DNA from: Flavobacteriales bacterium
Lineage (GTDB): Bacteria; Bacteroidota; Bacteroidia; Flavobacteriales_E; Vicingaceae
Length of the DNA stretch: 64,000 nt
Assembly: GCA_905339165.1 (NCBI GenBank)
Contig: CAJPFH010000064.1
Coordinates: 1-64,000 of the forward strand
Direction: 5' to 3'
The position numbers and the translations under genes are program-made. Below the pieces are notes generated by a model. It was not told where the DNA came from. It saw nothing but the letters and a program-made list of their open reading frames with translations, and ran no database searches. Shown in pieces: positions 34,553 through 39,931 of the stretch (the stretch's first letter is position 1; each line of letters starts with the position of its first letter).

Positions 34553-34909
34553 ATTTTCAAAGTTAGGAATTTAACGGAACAGCTAAAAAAGTGGCTCTTT
34601 TACTTATGCAGAGTGTCTGCTTATATGGTGGCAAAAGCTCTCACATACTCTTGCATTTTTTCGGCAGTCTCCGATTTTTTTTGTTCTTGTTTATATTCAT
34701 TTTGGTTGATTTTGTGTCAACCTATTTCAGGAATATACACTTTATATAATCACAGCTAACGTTTTCGGGCTTTGCGTTGGTAGGCTTTTTAGCACAAAAG
34801 TTCAATCGGAGAACTGCACTTGATCCTACCACAAAACTTTCATACGAAGCACTGAACCGCCACTTTTGCAAAACCGCTGTTATATGCCGTTTTTCTTTCT
34901 TCGCATTCA
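34553..34909. other. Intergenic region with AraC promoter and attC-like element
   Basis: No gene is supported. The left end carries the AraC promoter (34558-34565). About 34753-34890 is a structured repeat described separately; the segment between them (34570-34750) shows nothing I recognise. Confidence 0.7.
34753..34890 (-). repeat. attC-like structured repeat at the 3' end of the restriction-modification operon
   Basis: Read on the minus strand it begins GGCATATAACAGCGGTTTTGC and ends in GAAAACGTTAGCTG. The outer TAAC...GTTA ends pair, TTTGC/GCAAA segments can pair with bulges, and TGGTAGG pairs with CCTACCA in the inner part. This imperfect, asymmetric palindrome with a variable centre is how integron attC sites look, although the 7-bp core boxes do not match the RYYYAAC/GTTRRRY consensus strictly. 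Its last 23 bp (34757-34779) recur at 38407-38429, on the other side of the operon. Confidence 0.5.
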
Positions 34910-36298
34910 TTAGTTCCAAAAGTCTAACAAGTTTGTAATTGCGTCTTTGAATAGTTTTGGTGCTTTCACGCCTAAAATTAGTTGACCATTTTCGTTGAGT
35001 AAAAACCCAATTTCTATTTCAATTATTTCTTGTGCTGTGCTTCCATATAATACAACTGTCCTCAATATTTTAAATTTTGGATAGTGTTTCAAAATGTAAT
35101 TTTTCTCTATATAGTCGTAGTTCCCAAGCTCAGTAATTCCATTTTTGCGAAAAGCGTATTTTTTGCCCTCAACATTTATAACTTCACTTCGTCCAAAGTC
35201 TATAAGTATTAAATCTGGAATATGTACAATTTGTTTCTTATCACCACTTTTATATTTTTCTCTGTCTTTGTATTTTTCAAGCGGAATATGTTCGCCATTT
35301 TTAGTTATAAAATAACCTTTTTCAGAACCAGCATGATTTTCAAAAATCGAATAACCTTCTGTGAAATTTTCTACAACTAAATGAATAAAAATTGTACCAA
35401 GTTTTTCGCCATCTGTGTCGTATTTCCAATAATCCTTATTCATTTCGGCTTTTGGAACTGTCAAGCCTTGTAAAGAAATGTCTAATTTATTAGCAATTTG
35501 GATAAACTTGTTGGTTTTGCCAACGTGTTTTTGCAAAAGTCCGTGTTGAGTAATTTCAATTTTTTGTGTCCAACCTAATTGTCGTAAAACTGCACAAATA
35601 ATGCTCAATGCCCCAATATTTGGGTCGTGTGAAAGTCCACCGCTTTTAAAAAGTCTACCTGAAACTTCAATTTTAGTTTTTGATTTTGTTAGCAAAATTG
35701 GCACGTTTCCTTTTGGTGCTTTTCGCATATTGTCTTTCAATTCTATGATTTCATCAATGGTTTTGAAAGGGGTAAATATTTTGCTGTCAAGTTTCTTACC
35801 TAAAATTTCAACGCCCAAAGTTAAAAGCAACTTTGTTCCAAAAATGTAAGTAGATGTCGGCTCTTCTTTTTGGTCAATTTGCAAATTGTAAAGCATTACC
35901 TTTTTTGCGTTTGGGTAATAACTTTGAATAAAAACAAACTTACTACAACGTTGATAAACACCTGTATTTCGACTTTCTTTATCGTCTGTTTTTGTTTCTT
36001 CTATCGCATAAATTGGCTCGTCTTTTAATGTTGGTTCATCTTTTTGATAGAATATCAAAAAATCTGTAAAACTTGAATTACCCGAAACAGTTTTCACATA
36101 AACCTTGTCCACTTTATTACAACGAAAACCTGTAACTTCATAAGTGAAAGTAAATTTATTGTCCTCCAAAATCGGAAAAATACGAAGCGTATCAACGAAA
36201 ACGGCAAAACCGCAATCTTTGGCAAACTTTTGAAATATCGTTTGTAGAACTTCTTTTTTAGGTCGTTCTTCTGTTAGAAACCAAAGATTTTTAGGCAT
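34910..36298 (-). CDS. Type II restriction endonuclease (predicted PD-(D/E)XK)
   Basis: 462 aa, no recognised exact relative. The nuclease call rests on context (two adenine methyltransferases directly upstream) and on FTDFLIFYQKDE followed by IYAIEETKTDD near residues ~85-115, which fits a D-x(n)-(E)xK active site. The C-terminal half contains ISIIC-like helices and IPDLILIDFGRSEVINVEGKK, a second D...E-x-K-like pattern (E-V-I-N-V-E-G-K). Start at 36298 lies 8 bp within the preceding methyltransferase gene end. Cleavage site unknown. Confidence 0.75.
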   Translation of the reverse strand: MPKNLWFLTEERPKKEVLQTIFQKFAKDCGFAVFVDTLRIFPILEDNKFTFTYEVTGFRCNKVDKVYVKTVSGNSSFTDFLIFYQKDEPTLKDEPIYAIEETKTDDKESRNTGVYQRCSKFVFIQSYYPNAKKVMLYNLQIDQKEEPTSTYIFGTKLLLTLGVEILGKKLDSKIFTPFKTIDEIIELKDNMRKAPKGNVPILLTKSKTKIEVSGRLFKSGGLSHDPNIGALSIICAVLRQLGWTQKIEITQHGLLQKHVGKTNKFIQIANKLDISLQGLTVPKAEMNKDYWKYDTDGEKLGTIFIHLVVENFTEGYSIFENHAGSEKGYFITKNGEHIPLEKYKDREKYKSGDKKQIVHIPDLILIDFGRSEVINVEGKKYAFRKNGITELGNYDYIEKNYILKHYPKFKILRTVVLYGSTAQEIIEIEIGFLLNENGQLILGVKAPKLFKDAITNLLDFWN

Positions 36299-37355
36299 AC
36301 TTTTTTAAAATGTATAACTGTTCGTGAATAAATTTCTTTGTGTTACTTTGTCCATTGCTGTTGCTTTTAAAACGCAAATATTCAAACTCAACTAATTCAA
36401 CTTCCCCATACTTCTCTAATGTAGAAATTATGTCTTCTTGTTGCATAATTCCTTCGGTGTTATAACTTAATATTAAACTTTTAAATTTCCCTTTTTTAGC
36501 AATATCATTGAGTTCTTGTATTGCAGTAGTTGCATTGCAAAACTTTGATTTTTGATTTTGATAATCTCTTAAACCTGCAACTCCTTTAATTTTTGGGTTA
36601 TCATACTTTGCAATGGTTTCTAATAAATGATAATTTGGTGCGTATTGACGTTGATTATATGGTGGGTCAAGATAAAAAATGTCTGCCTCAACTTCGTTGA
36701 GTAATTCGGTCGAATTTTTATAGTAAGTAAAATTTTCTTTATTGTTTACTACAAATTCAACTGGTCGTAAAATCATTTTTTTTACTGCTCTTGGGTCCCA
36801 TATTTTTTGAAATGCAGCATAAACACCAGAAATATTGGCGTAAAAAGGAACAGTTTCAATTAAACACGCCAATAAAACAAAATATTCATTTTCATTTATT
36901 AAATCCTCTATTTTCCAAAGTTCAATTTTTTGTCTAATTGCATCAATTATTTTTCCGTTTTCGTCAGAATAATACATTCGTGGAATTTCTAATTCAGAAG
37001 TTCCAAAAGGCGTATAATTTTGAGAAATAAAACCTTCAACAGGCTCAATTTGGTTTAGATATTCGACAACTATATGTATAGGTGAAGCAAAAAGTGATGT
37101 GCTTTGAAAATTGAGTTTTTTCAATAATTTTTCAAAGTTTAATTCTTGATTGTTTGAAATATATGCTCTTTGTAAAACATAAGAAAAGTACATTAAATCA
37201 GATGAATAAATTTGATAATTCAACTTTTTAAAAAATTTACTTACGCTTGTTGTACCAGCAAAAAAATCAAAAAATGAATTTCCTTGAATTTTTTTTAATT
37301 GCATTACTTGATAAATTTTCTCAAGTAAGTTTTCTTTGTTTCCGAGATACCTCAT
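36291..37355 (-). CDS. DNA adenine methyltransferase, D12 class (first)
   Basis: 354 aa. AdoMet-binding motif FFDFFAGTTSVSKFF near residue 25-40 after the D12-type start MRYLGNKENLLEKI, and catalytic motif IV FYLDPPYNQRQYAPNY near ~230. This form (DPPYNxRQY) is common in type II and phase-variable methyltransferases. It is in the middle of a methyltransferase-methyltransferase-nuclease operon; two different adenine methyltransferases usually mean an asymmetric recognition site needing separate modification of each strand. Confidence 0.9.
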   Translation of the reverse strand: MRYLGNKENLLEKIYQVMQLKKIQGNSFFDFFAGTTSVSKFFKKLNYQIYSSDLMYFSYVLQRAYISNNQELNFEKLLKKLNFQSTSLFASPIHIVVEYLNQIEPVEGFISQNYTPFGTSELEIPRMYYSDENGKIIDAIRQKIELWKIEDLINENEYFVLLACLIETVPFYANISGVYAAFQKIWDPRAVKKMILRPVEFVVNNKENFTYYKNSTELLNEVEADIFYLDPPYNQRQYAPNYHLLETIAKYDNPKIKGVAGLRDYQNQKSKFCNATTAIQELNDIAKKGKFKSLILSYNTEGIMQQEDIISTLEKYGEVELVEFEYLRFKSNSNGQSNTKKFIHEQLYILKKYA

Positions 37356-37360
37356 AAATG

Positions 37361-38299
37361 CTAAAAATCAAATTCATCAAAAAGAGTTTTCTCTTTTTGT
37401 GGTTTTTGAGGTTCGTAATTTGTTATAAGCACTTCCACACTTGCGTTTTTATCTCGTACAAGTGTTTGATAGTTTGAGTTTGAATAATGAAAATTTAAGT
37501 AATTAATTTTATAATTCAGGTTGCTTGCAACCCAAGACTTTAAAACATCATTTGATTTTCCTTTGTGTTCTAAAACATTTGAAAGTGCAAACTTTATATC
37601 TCGTTTGTTCAAATTGTCAAGTATTTGCAAAAGTTGTTTTTCTTCCTTTTCTGTCCAGCCTTTAAAACCTCTTTTTCCGTCATTGTAAGTTCCTGTTGTA
37701 ATCAAATAAGGAGGGTCGCAATAGACAAAATCATTAGAATTTAGAAATGTAAAATCAAAATTATTAAAACAAACATTGGTGAAGCCAATGTTTGTTTCTT
37801 TTAATCTTATTATGAATTTCTCTAAATTTTGTTTCATTGAAGTGTTGAAACTACTTCTTTCACGTCCAAAAGGATTATTAAATTCGTGATTATTGTTAAA
37901 GCGGATTTGGTGGTTAAAAGAATAGGCAATAAGAACAAATAAATCCAATGGATTTTTTTGTTTATTATATTGCTCTCTCAATTTTTTATATCCTTCTTCA
38001 TTAGTCAGAGAAAGTTGAAACTCTTTAATTCGTTTTTCAATGTATGAAATTGTTGTATCAAGGTCGTTTTCTTGAAATTTTTGGTACATCTCAATTAGGT
38101 AAGTCAAGTTGTCATTAAAGTAAATTTTATTAGCATTTACGTTAATTCCAACGTTGCAACCACCCGCAAACAAGTCAACAAAATTGTTTATTTCTTTTGG
38201 AAATAAAGGCAAAATTTGGTCTAATATTTTTGCTTTCCCTCCAATATAATTTAGTGGAGATTTAATTTGTTTTAAACTATGTCTGCTTGTTACTGCCAT
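37361..38299 (-). CDS. DNA adenine methyltransferase, D12 class (second)
   Basis: 312 aa. Starts KSPLNYIGGKAKILDQIL, motif I FVDLFAGGCNVGIN and motif IV DFVYCDPPYLITTGTYNDGK, as in Dam-like enzymes. First gene of the restriction-modification operon, 5 nt before the other methyltransferase, so protection is expressed before the nuclease. Upstream on the minus strand TTTG (38351-38348) and TAACTTTG (38324-38317), 23 bp apart, make a promoter inside the cassette. Confidence 0.93.
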   Translation of the reverse strand: MAVTSRHSLKQIKSPLNYIGGKAKILDQILPLFPKEINNFVDLFAGGCNVGINVNANKIYFNDNLTYLIEMYQKFQENDLDTTISYIEKRIKEFQLSLTNEEGYKKLREQYNKQKNPLDLFVLIAYSFNHQIRFNNNHEFNNPFGRERSSFNTSMKQNLEKFIIRLKETNIGFTNVCFNNFDFTFLNSNDFVYCDPPYLITTGTYNDGKRGFKGWTEKEEKQLLQILDNLNKRDIKFALSNVLEHKGKSNDVLKSWVASNLNYKINYLNFHYSNSNYQTLVRDKNASVEVLITNYEPQKPQKEKTLFDEFDF

Positions 38300-38316
38300 T
38301 CAAATTTATCTTTTTG

Positions 38317-38351
38317 CAAAGTTACAATTGTTGTTTTCTTTTAATGTCAAA
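38317..38351 (-). promoter_or_regulatory. Promoter of the restriction-modification operon
   Basis: Minus-strand TTTG at 38348-38351 and TAACTTTG at 38317-38324, separated by 23 bp, match the Bacteroidota -33/-7 pair. It lies inside the borders of the mobile unit, so the operon carries its own promoter. Confidence 0.5.
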
Positions 38352-38400
38352 TTTTCAGATTTTATTCCAAGCTTTTGTCGATTGTGTGATGTTCTAAAAA

Positions 38401-38429
38401 GGCATATAACGTTTTCGGGCTTTGCGTTG
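38401..38429 (-). repeat. Half copy of the attC-like repeat at the 5' border of the R-M operon
   Basis: 38407-38429 is identical to 34757-34779 (23 bp), and GGCATATAAC (38401-38410) reappears inverted at 34879-34888. On the minus strand this matches the 3' end of the attC-like element. It begins only about 10 nt after the stop codon of the serine hydrolase gene, so the 5' half of that site is missing. Confidence 0.7.
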
Positions 38430-38438
38430 TGGCAGTAG

Positions 38439-39749
38439 TTATTCTATTATCAGTTTGTTTGTCCAAACTTTTCCATTATCAAGAATTGCTTTTACTAAAT
38501 ATAGTCCTTTTTGCAGTTCGCTAATTGATATGCTTATTTCTTTGTTTTGTGTGTTTAAAAATTTTACAACCTGTCCTTTTAAATTAAATACTTCAACTTT
38601 TAAAATTTGGTTGGCTGATTTTAAATTTAAAATGTCGTTGCTTGGATTTGGAAATAATTTTATAAAATCGTTTTGAAAATCTTGATTATCAATCCCTGTT
38701 GAGTTACACTGCAGGTCGTTTATGTATTCCCAAATGTCATCGTTAAGCAAAAAAGGAACTAACGAATTTACAGGCTCATTACCCATTCTTACCCAAACCA
38801 TATTTTGACTAGGAATTACATTTAAAAATTGCCCACCTTTTCCCATTGCCGAAATCATATCAGGTGGGGCGTTAGGTATTATATAACCCGGAAATACAAT
38901 TTGTGAGGAAGGTATCATAAAACTTTGTTTTCCGTTTAACCACCACAAATATCCATAGGATTTATTGAGTGGTTGTGAAGTGGTTGTCATTTGGTTAAAA
39001 TAAGTGGTGTCGGTTAGTATTTGGTTTCCGTTCCAATTTCCATTGTTCAAAATTAGAAGTCCAAAACGTGCCATGCTTCTTGCATTGCTGAAAAACACAT
39101 TGTTGTAACCAACAGGCACAAATGTTCCTGTCATTCCTGTCGGAGTTTTAAGCTTTTGCGTTGTGTAGCTATTCAGTGTTTGTCCTGTTGCGTTCTCAAT
39201 TACTCCGTCAAGAAGTGTATAAGGGGCATTGTGATATGCCCAACGTATTCCAGCATCTGCTTTATAAATTAAGCAACTGTCCAATGTGCAATAGGGATCA
39301 GCAACACCGTCATCAAGTCCCGATGTCATCATAAGTTGGTGGCGAATGGTTATTTTTTCTTCTTGCATAGTAGTGCAATCTGTCCAACCTTGTCCAAGAT
39401 AAGATGAAGTAGTGTCATTAATTGATAAATGCCCTTCTTGTTGAGCTATACCAACCATAAACGAAGTGATTGTTTTTCCTGCTGAAGCCCATTGCCAAAC
39501 AGAACTTTGAGTATGTGTCCCAAAATATTTTTCCAAAACAATCATTCCGTCTTTTAATAAGATAAATGCCTTGGTGTTGTTTGTGTCCAAAAAAGCATAT
39601 AGGCTGTCAATTTTAGATTGGCAATACCCTAGCGATTGTGGTGCAATAGTGTCCCACGTATTTCCTATTGTTGGTGGGAAGTAAAGCGACTGTGCATTTA
39701 CGCTGAAAGCTACAATTGTAGCAATTATTGAAGTAAAAAATTTATTCAT
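38439..39749 (-). CDS. Exported serine hydrolase (beta-lactamase/penicillin-binding fold) with T9SS domain
   Basis: 436 aa. Signal peptide MNKFFTSIIATIVAFSVNAQ, class C beta-lactamase-like core with the SxxK box (WASAGKTITS), a YHN-type second motif (WAYHNAPYT) and KGGQFLNV-like region, then a type A T9SS domain (LFPNPSNDILNLKSA to WTNKLIIE). Relatives include esterases and peptidases rather than true beta-lactamases; substrate is unknown. It lies directly upstream of the R-M cassette border, which may be its original terminator side. Confidence 0.9.
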   Translation of the reverse strand: MNKFFTSIIATIVAFSVNAQSLYFPPTIGNTWDTIAPQSLGYCQSKIDSLYAFLDTNNTKAFILLKDGMIVLEKYFGTHTQSSVWQWASAGKTITSFMVGIAQQEGHLSINDTTSSYLGQGWTDCTTMQEEKITIRHQLMMTSGLDDGVADPYCTLDSCLIYKADAGIRWAYHNAPYTLLDGVIENATGQTLNSYTTQKLKTPTGMTGTFVPVGYNNVFFSNARSMARFGLLILNNGNWNGNQILTDTTYFNQMTTTSQPLNKSYGYLWWLNGKQSFMIPSSQIVFPGYIIPNAPPDMISAMGKGGQFLNVIPSQNMVWVRMGNEPVNSLVPFLLNDDIWEYINDLQCNSTGIDNQDFQNDFIKLFPNPSNDILNLKSANQILKVEVFNLKGQVVKFLNTQNKEISISISELQKGLYLVKAILDNGKVWTNKLIIE

Positions 39750-39878
39750 ATTCGTTTGAATTAAAATTATTCGTTAGACGTATTAAATGTTGTTTGGTTT
39801 ATTCCTGTGTCATATTTTGTTCGGTTTTTCTGTCGTGATTCGTTTTTGTATAATTCCTGCCAACTTGTTTATACTCAC

Positions 39879-39931
39879 CATAAACATTTCTATAATCCTT
39901 ACTCTTTAATATTAATAAGAGAATGTTTATG
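39879..39931. other. Inverted repeat in the gap between SDR and serine hydrolase genes
   Basis: CATAAACATT (39879-39888) is the exact complement of AATGTTTATG (39922-39931), with a smaller TCTTTAAT/ATTAATAAGA pairing inside. It lies 3' of the SDR gene, about 50 nt beyond its stop; no T-run follows on the minus strand. Might be a terminator-like hairpin or a remnant of mobility. The rest of 39750-39982 shows nothing recognisable. Confidence 0.35.

Follow-up and report, generated by a model that had tools for sequence, protein, structure and literature searches.

A restriction-modification operon in a putative integron-like cassette array of a Flavobacteriales genome

Genes and sites at the locus

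We analyzed a stretch of 64,000 nt (the window) from a Flavobacteriales bacterium of the Vicingaceae (assembly GCA_905339165.1, contig CAJPFH010000064.1, positions 1 to 64,000; genome G000). Read along the minus strand, it presents an attI-like site, a serine hydrolase cassette (cassette 1), a restriction-modification (R-M) cassette (cassette 2) and then chromosome (Table 1). An initial annotation had described 34753-38430 as a methyltransferase-methyltransferase-nuclease operon bordered by a 23-bp direct repeat. Both claims held: the repeat is exact at 34757-34779 and 38407-38429, and the operon encodes two D12-class adenine methyltransferases and a type II restriction enzyme. The joint presence of methyltransferase and endonuclease genes fulfills the criterion for a type II R-M system, with activity inferred from sequence alone. 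A -7 promoter consensus is known for Bacteroidota, and TAACTTTG matches it. Relatives of the operon genes occur on plasmids of distant bacteria (60-80% identity), which argues that cargo of this type is mobile elsewhere.

Cassette 2 carries its own attC-like site (84.9 bits, E = 2.6e-18 with covariance model R1). The imperfect palindrome claimed for this end was confirmed, with covariance-model support, as a 126-nt core (34757-34882) plus outer arms reaching about 34892. The cassette start, TATGCC, is complementary to the 5' arm of this site; GGCATATAAC at 38401-38410 (plus strand) has its exact complement, GTTATATGCC, at 34879-34888. Position +7 of the start is T, where A is usual. Two claims needed correction. 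The upstream border, read as a bare repeat tail, is the right half of an attC-like site, and no whole site was called at 38407-38433 by the covariance model; the relevant unit also extends beyond 34753-38430, reaching the attI-like site at 39862. Regions around hydrolase orthologues in two other genomes (G001 and G044) share no other gene with the window. At the opposite end, the stretch separating the last site from the conserved flank is likely, by inference, the remnant of a further cassette start.

Table 1. Coordinates of features at the locus and of related array heads (window positions unless a genome and contig are given; a slash in GTT/R marks the crossover).
Feature	Coordinates	Strand	Basis or remark
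Hairpin of attI-like site	39879..39931	-	Predicted fold
attI-like core TATAAACAAGTT, crossover GTT/R at 39862/39861	39862..39873	-	Motif shared with recombinase-adjacent site; G000/G005 homology stop
Cassette 1, secreted beta-lactamase-family serine hydrolase	38408..39861	-	Cassette-type start GTT/GGCAGGAATTA
PF00144 serine hydrolase with Por secretion tail, 436 aa	38439..39749	-	
Right half of attC-like site, ending cassette 1	38407..38433	-	Left half missing
Cassette 2, R-M operon with own attC-like site	34758..38407	-	Start complementary to the site's 5' arm
TAACTTTG, promoter-like -7 match	38317..38324	-	Consensus match only
Dam-type N6-adenine methyltransferase, 312 aa	37361..38299	-	
D12-class N6-adenine methyltransferase, 354 aa	36291..37355	-	
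Type II restriction endonuclease, 462 aa	34910..36298	-	PADLOC PDLC03445, 216.8 bits
Outer 5' arm of attC-like site	34883..34892	-	Complementary to cassette start
attC-like hairpin site of cassette 2, TAACA...GTTA, 126 nt	34757..34882	-	Covariance model R1
Stretch between last site and conserved flank	34639..34756	-	Differs from G005
TATAAACAAGTT motif heading array without recombinase gene	window 39862-39873; G000:C34:68305; G005:C2:48011; G005:C18:108540; G005:C16:95373		
attI-like variant TATAGGTAAGTT at array head	G005:C19:8897		

A family of attC-like sites in Bacteroidota

The site belongs to a structured family. Its first six copies align over ~126 nt (TAACA...GTTA), and a 22-bp arm is repeated elsewhere in the genome. 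A covariance model built from 38 diverse sites (19 pairs) identified 54 attC-like sites in this genome, so the check for further repeat copies proposed in the initial annotation was positive. Because the arm recurs and the model finds this many sites, the signal lies far beyond chance. Of the cells in the model stems, 94.7% are paired; two-sided changes total 116, compared with 43 in shuffles. In GTDB genomes, the right-arm pattern has matches in more than 117 stretches, which come almost entirely from Bacteroidota and include named isolates as well as metagenome-assembled genomes. Schleiferia thermophila DSM 21410 and Thermoflexibacter ruber DSM 9560 are examples of isolates that carry sites. 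With the covariance model, sites were found in 35 of 46 genomes from the bacterium's own family and in 102 of the 198 Bacteroidota genomes sampled (63 of 103 genera), where per-genome counts are lower bounds. A search of Rfam with the attC-like sites gave no match.

Near-identical sites were also observed at contig breaks, namely at the ends of C11, C50, C54, C81, C82, C110, C121 and C128 of G000. Since contigs break at such sites, arrays are under-assembled and cassette counts should be read as "at least". One locus with several attC-like sites additionally contains a DUF805 RNA motif (RF03081, 79.9 bits; L135:2290-2358, minus strand).

Folding, likewise proposed at the outset, revealed that the ends pair and that certain unpaired or mismatched bases are conserved. 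The sites thereby meet the integron criterion of an imperfectly palindromic, structurally conserved site with unpaired bases. They fail that of classical core boxes, which are rare (GTTRRRY in 11/151, RYYYAAC in 9/151), and the earlier caveat that the boxes deviate was thus borne out. Top and bottom strands are predicted to fold with about equal energy, so the folds do not point to one active strand.

Arrays follow a cassette logic

None of 41 loci with at least two sites was mixed-strand. ORFs between sites were co-oriented in 123 cases and opposed in 24 (44,428 versus 3,733 aa). We then compared the five bases after GTT/R at each cassette start with the five bases before TAAC in the same cassette's site. 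All five were complementary in 50 of 93 pairs, whereas 500 shuffles gave a mean of 3.3 and a maximum of 10. Among the 62 pairs with at least four matching bases, the R base co-varies, +7 is always A and hardly ever matched, and four more pairs follow; these figures are conditional, as the pairs were selected by their arms. Arrays and arms are thus established, and the sites meet the integron criterion that the R'' and R' arms derive from the same cassette. By inference, the pattern is the trace expected from a circular cassette opened at a single point. Cargo examined in the cassettes included R-M, HamA, McrBC and Schlafen-type genes as well as metal or RND efflux; with such cargo, the system may possibly spread phage defence.

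attI-like sites and cassette replacement

In this genome and its relatives, TATAAACAAGTT or a close variant lies ~90-130 bp 3' of the stop codon of a tyrosine recombinase gene, directly followed by a cassette-type start. Such a site was found 3' of the recombinase gene in about 20 genomes, with first-cassette arms that mostly match. The integron criterion of an attI-type site beside the recombinase gene with variable cassettes behind it is therefore met, the label "attI-like" resting on position and crossover. The same motif also heads other arrays, including that of the window, without a recombinase gene (Table 1).

A comparison of relatives had been proposed as a third check, and the locus content indeed differs in G005, a genome of the same genus. 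The window flanks are colinear with G005:C19; homology ends at window position 39862, exactly at the attI-like crossover, and resumes at 34638, enclosing 5.2 kb in G000 and a 28-kb array with further sites in G005. Cassette 1 is missing from the corresponding place. Three further loci behave alike: homology is lost at the attI-like crossover at C18:8924/C31:96 (G000/G005) and C34:68305/C2:48011 (two cassettes versus ~36 kb), and no more than about ten bases from it at C7:56365/C18:108549. Cassette content has thus been replaced at the same sites between two genomes of one genus, which is the nearest to an empty-site test in the available data. A further candidate for an empty site, G040, was rejected: no site lies beside its AraC gene, but the other flank is off the contig.

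These observations bear on two alternative explanations. The sites could be structured repeats of the dispersed kind (such as a REP-like element) that do no more than flank genes, and they are indeed similar and numerous. We regard this as highly improbable, because cassette-specific arms that match better than shuffles, strict strand agreement and homology stops at single-nucleotide resolution would be unexpected. Alternatively, the system could be real and the window array dead, left after deletion from a larger array like that in G005. The half site, the T at position +7 where the R-M cassette begins and the 28 kb at the same locus in G005 favor this reading, whereas neither the attI-like site nor the R-M cassette's attC-like site is truncated, both being complete. 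Given the T at +7 and the half-deleted site of cassette 1, an inactive array is a real possibility, though less likely than not; such a remnant would refine, not exclude, the interpretation as a cassette array.

A linked tyrosine recombinase

The initial annotation had noted that the window lacks an integrase, and this held; the likely integrase, not a canonical IntI, is encoded on another contig (C18:9038-10186; 382 aa, or 415 aa from the first possible start). It combines PF13495 and PF00589 domains with an N-terminal extension. The protein reaches 226 bits with the XerA model NF040815 (cut-off 220) and 207 bits with the integron-integrase model TIGR02249 (cut-off 265). It fails the criterion of I2, the integrase-specific domain (PMC4792948), an insert found in 0/23 recombinases of its tight group and in 8/8 aligned IntI. 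In the tree, 22 of these 23 recombinases cluster (support 91/85); IntI (100/100) and the genome's two Xer-like proteins fall outside this cluster.

Presence of the recombinase is linked to presence of the sites. Among the 198 sampled genomes, all 20 with a close-clade recombinase carry sites (Fisher, 8e-7), and for the wider recombinase family the proportions are 62/71 with and 40/127 without (p = 7e-15). The p values are optimistic, as sampled genomes share ancestry, and the 40 genomes with sites (some with 11-15) but no detected recombinase count against our proposal. At 21 tabulated loci, which were picked for containing both features, a distance of 0.3-11.7 kb separates the recombinase from a downstream site on the same strand; in this genome, the first detected attC-like site lies 7.8 kb behind it, a further point against the proposal. 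While this linkage is shown, catalysis is inferred, and we consider it likely that the C18 recombinase is the integrase of the attC-like arrays.

A structure model of an orthologue (pLDDT 84, pTM 0.55) matched XerA and IntI4 structures in a whole-model Foldseek search, with 5hxy as the top match. The N-terminal part (about 60-100 aa) forms a beta-rich extra domain without a Pfam match above cut-off; conceivably, it serves site recognition in place of I2.

G045 was rejected as evidence for transfer of the recombinase between genera. Positions 9980-11693 of L199, on its contig C88, comprise 1714 bp identical to C18 of G000, and since the identity ends within an ORF and spans two tRNA genes, the stretch is probably an assembly chimera.

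Two rival explanations concern the enzyme. Were the system a canonical integron, the cassettes would be moved by a true IntI located elsewhere in the cell and the sites would be ordinary attC; the overall logic is identical, and IntI above the NCBIfam cut-off occurs in 57/198 Bacteroidota genomes. This genome, however, has no IntI over the cut-off, the core boxes are non-classical, and sites show no positive association with IntI (23/57 IntI genomes versus 79/141; odds ratio 0.53, p = 0.06), which leaves this explanation with very little support. Alternatively, host XerC/XerD could act at dif-like sites, the linked recombinase being incidental. Xer-like proteins are indeed encoded on C14 and C28, but the linked clade is separate from both in the tree, predicts site presence and is found at the array head with an attI-like site, so we hold this to be most improbable as well.

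Proposed mechanism and relation to known systems

We very likely see, in the window, a short cassette array of a Bacteroidota integron-like system with a tyrosine recombinase encoded at another place in the genome; the initial reading of a cassette-like mobile unit is supported, and none of the conditions named at the outset as refuting it was fulfilled, although no recombination has been observed. In the proposed mechanism, the recombinase (C18:9038-10186) would cut and join at GTT/R, using as substrates attI-like sites (hairpin plus TATAAACAAGTT) and attC-like sites of ~126 nt, the latter probably in folded single-stranded form. While circular, a cassette would hold both complementary arms of its own site, and insertion would part them, one going to the cassette start and the other to the start of the cassette's attC-like site. 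A single recombinase appears to act in trans on several dispersed arrays or attI-like landing sites. Catalysis, strand choice, the single-stranded substrate and service in trans are all inferred.

The system shares with integrons (IntI, attI and attC, both mobile and sedentary chromosomal) a tyrosine recombinase, an attI-like site, co-oriented cassette arrays, imperfectly palindromic sites with both outer arms derived from one and the same cassette, and GTT at the crossover. It differs in a recombinase without I2 and with an N-terminal extension, in its core boxes, in a recombinase gene that points the same way as the array and is followed by the attI-like site on its 3' side, and in several attI-like copies without an integrase gene. 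Since the I2, integrase-model and core-box criteria fail, we conclude that the system, although integron-like in the way it works, falls outside the IntI/attC family. Most arrays resemble CALINs (attC clusters without integrase) in lacking an adjacent recombinase; in contrast, an attI-like site opens the arrays whose heads were read, and the genome does contain a linked recombinase gene at another place. XerA, XerC and XerD are similar in the catalytic domain, the passed XerA cut-off and the top structure match (5hxy), whereas our recombinase is array-linked, has the extra N-terminal domain and forms a separate clade. Non-classical integration sites of integrons are known as attG (see also PMC12901181). 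They too are landing sites distant from the integrase gene, but the Bacteroidota landing sites closely resemble the recombinase-adjacent attI-like site (no sequence comparison with attG was made).

No description of the system was found in the open-access literature searched, with most subscription papers and all preprints outside its scope. A bolder reading, towards which we lean only slightly, is that of a separate integron lineage widespread in Bacteroidota, with an I2-less recombinase, folded attC-like sites and dispersed attI-like sites served in trans. How I2 and attC could each arise before the other is an open question (PMC4792948), which natural folded cassette sites with an I2-less recombinase, if true, would make testable. 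The system would also, if true, bring to light a large pool of cassette genes in a phylum so far considered poor in integrons; IntegronFinder 2.0 reported one complete Bacteroidetes integron, in Salinibacter ruber (PMC9024848). As a separate observation, the number of sampled Bacteroidota genomes with canonical IntI (57/198) is far above this single complete integron reported for complete genomes.
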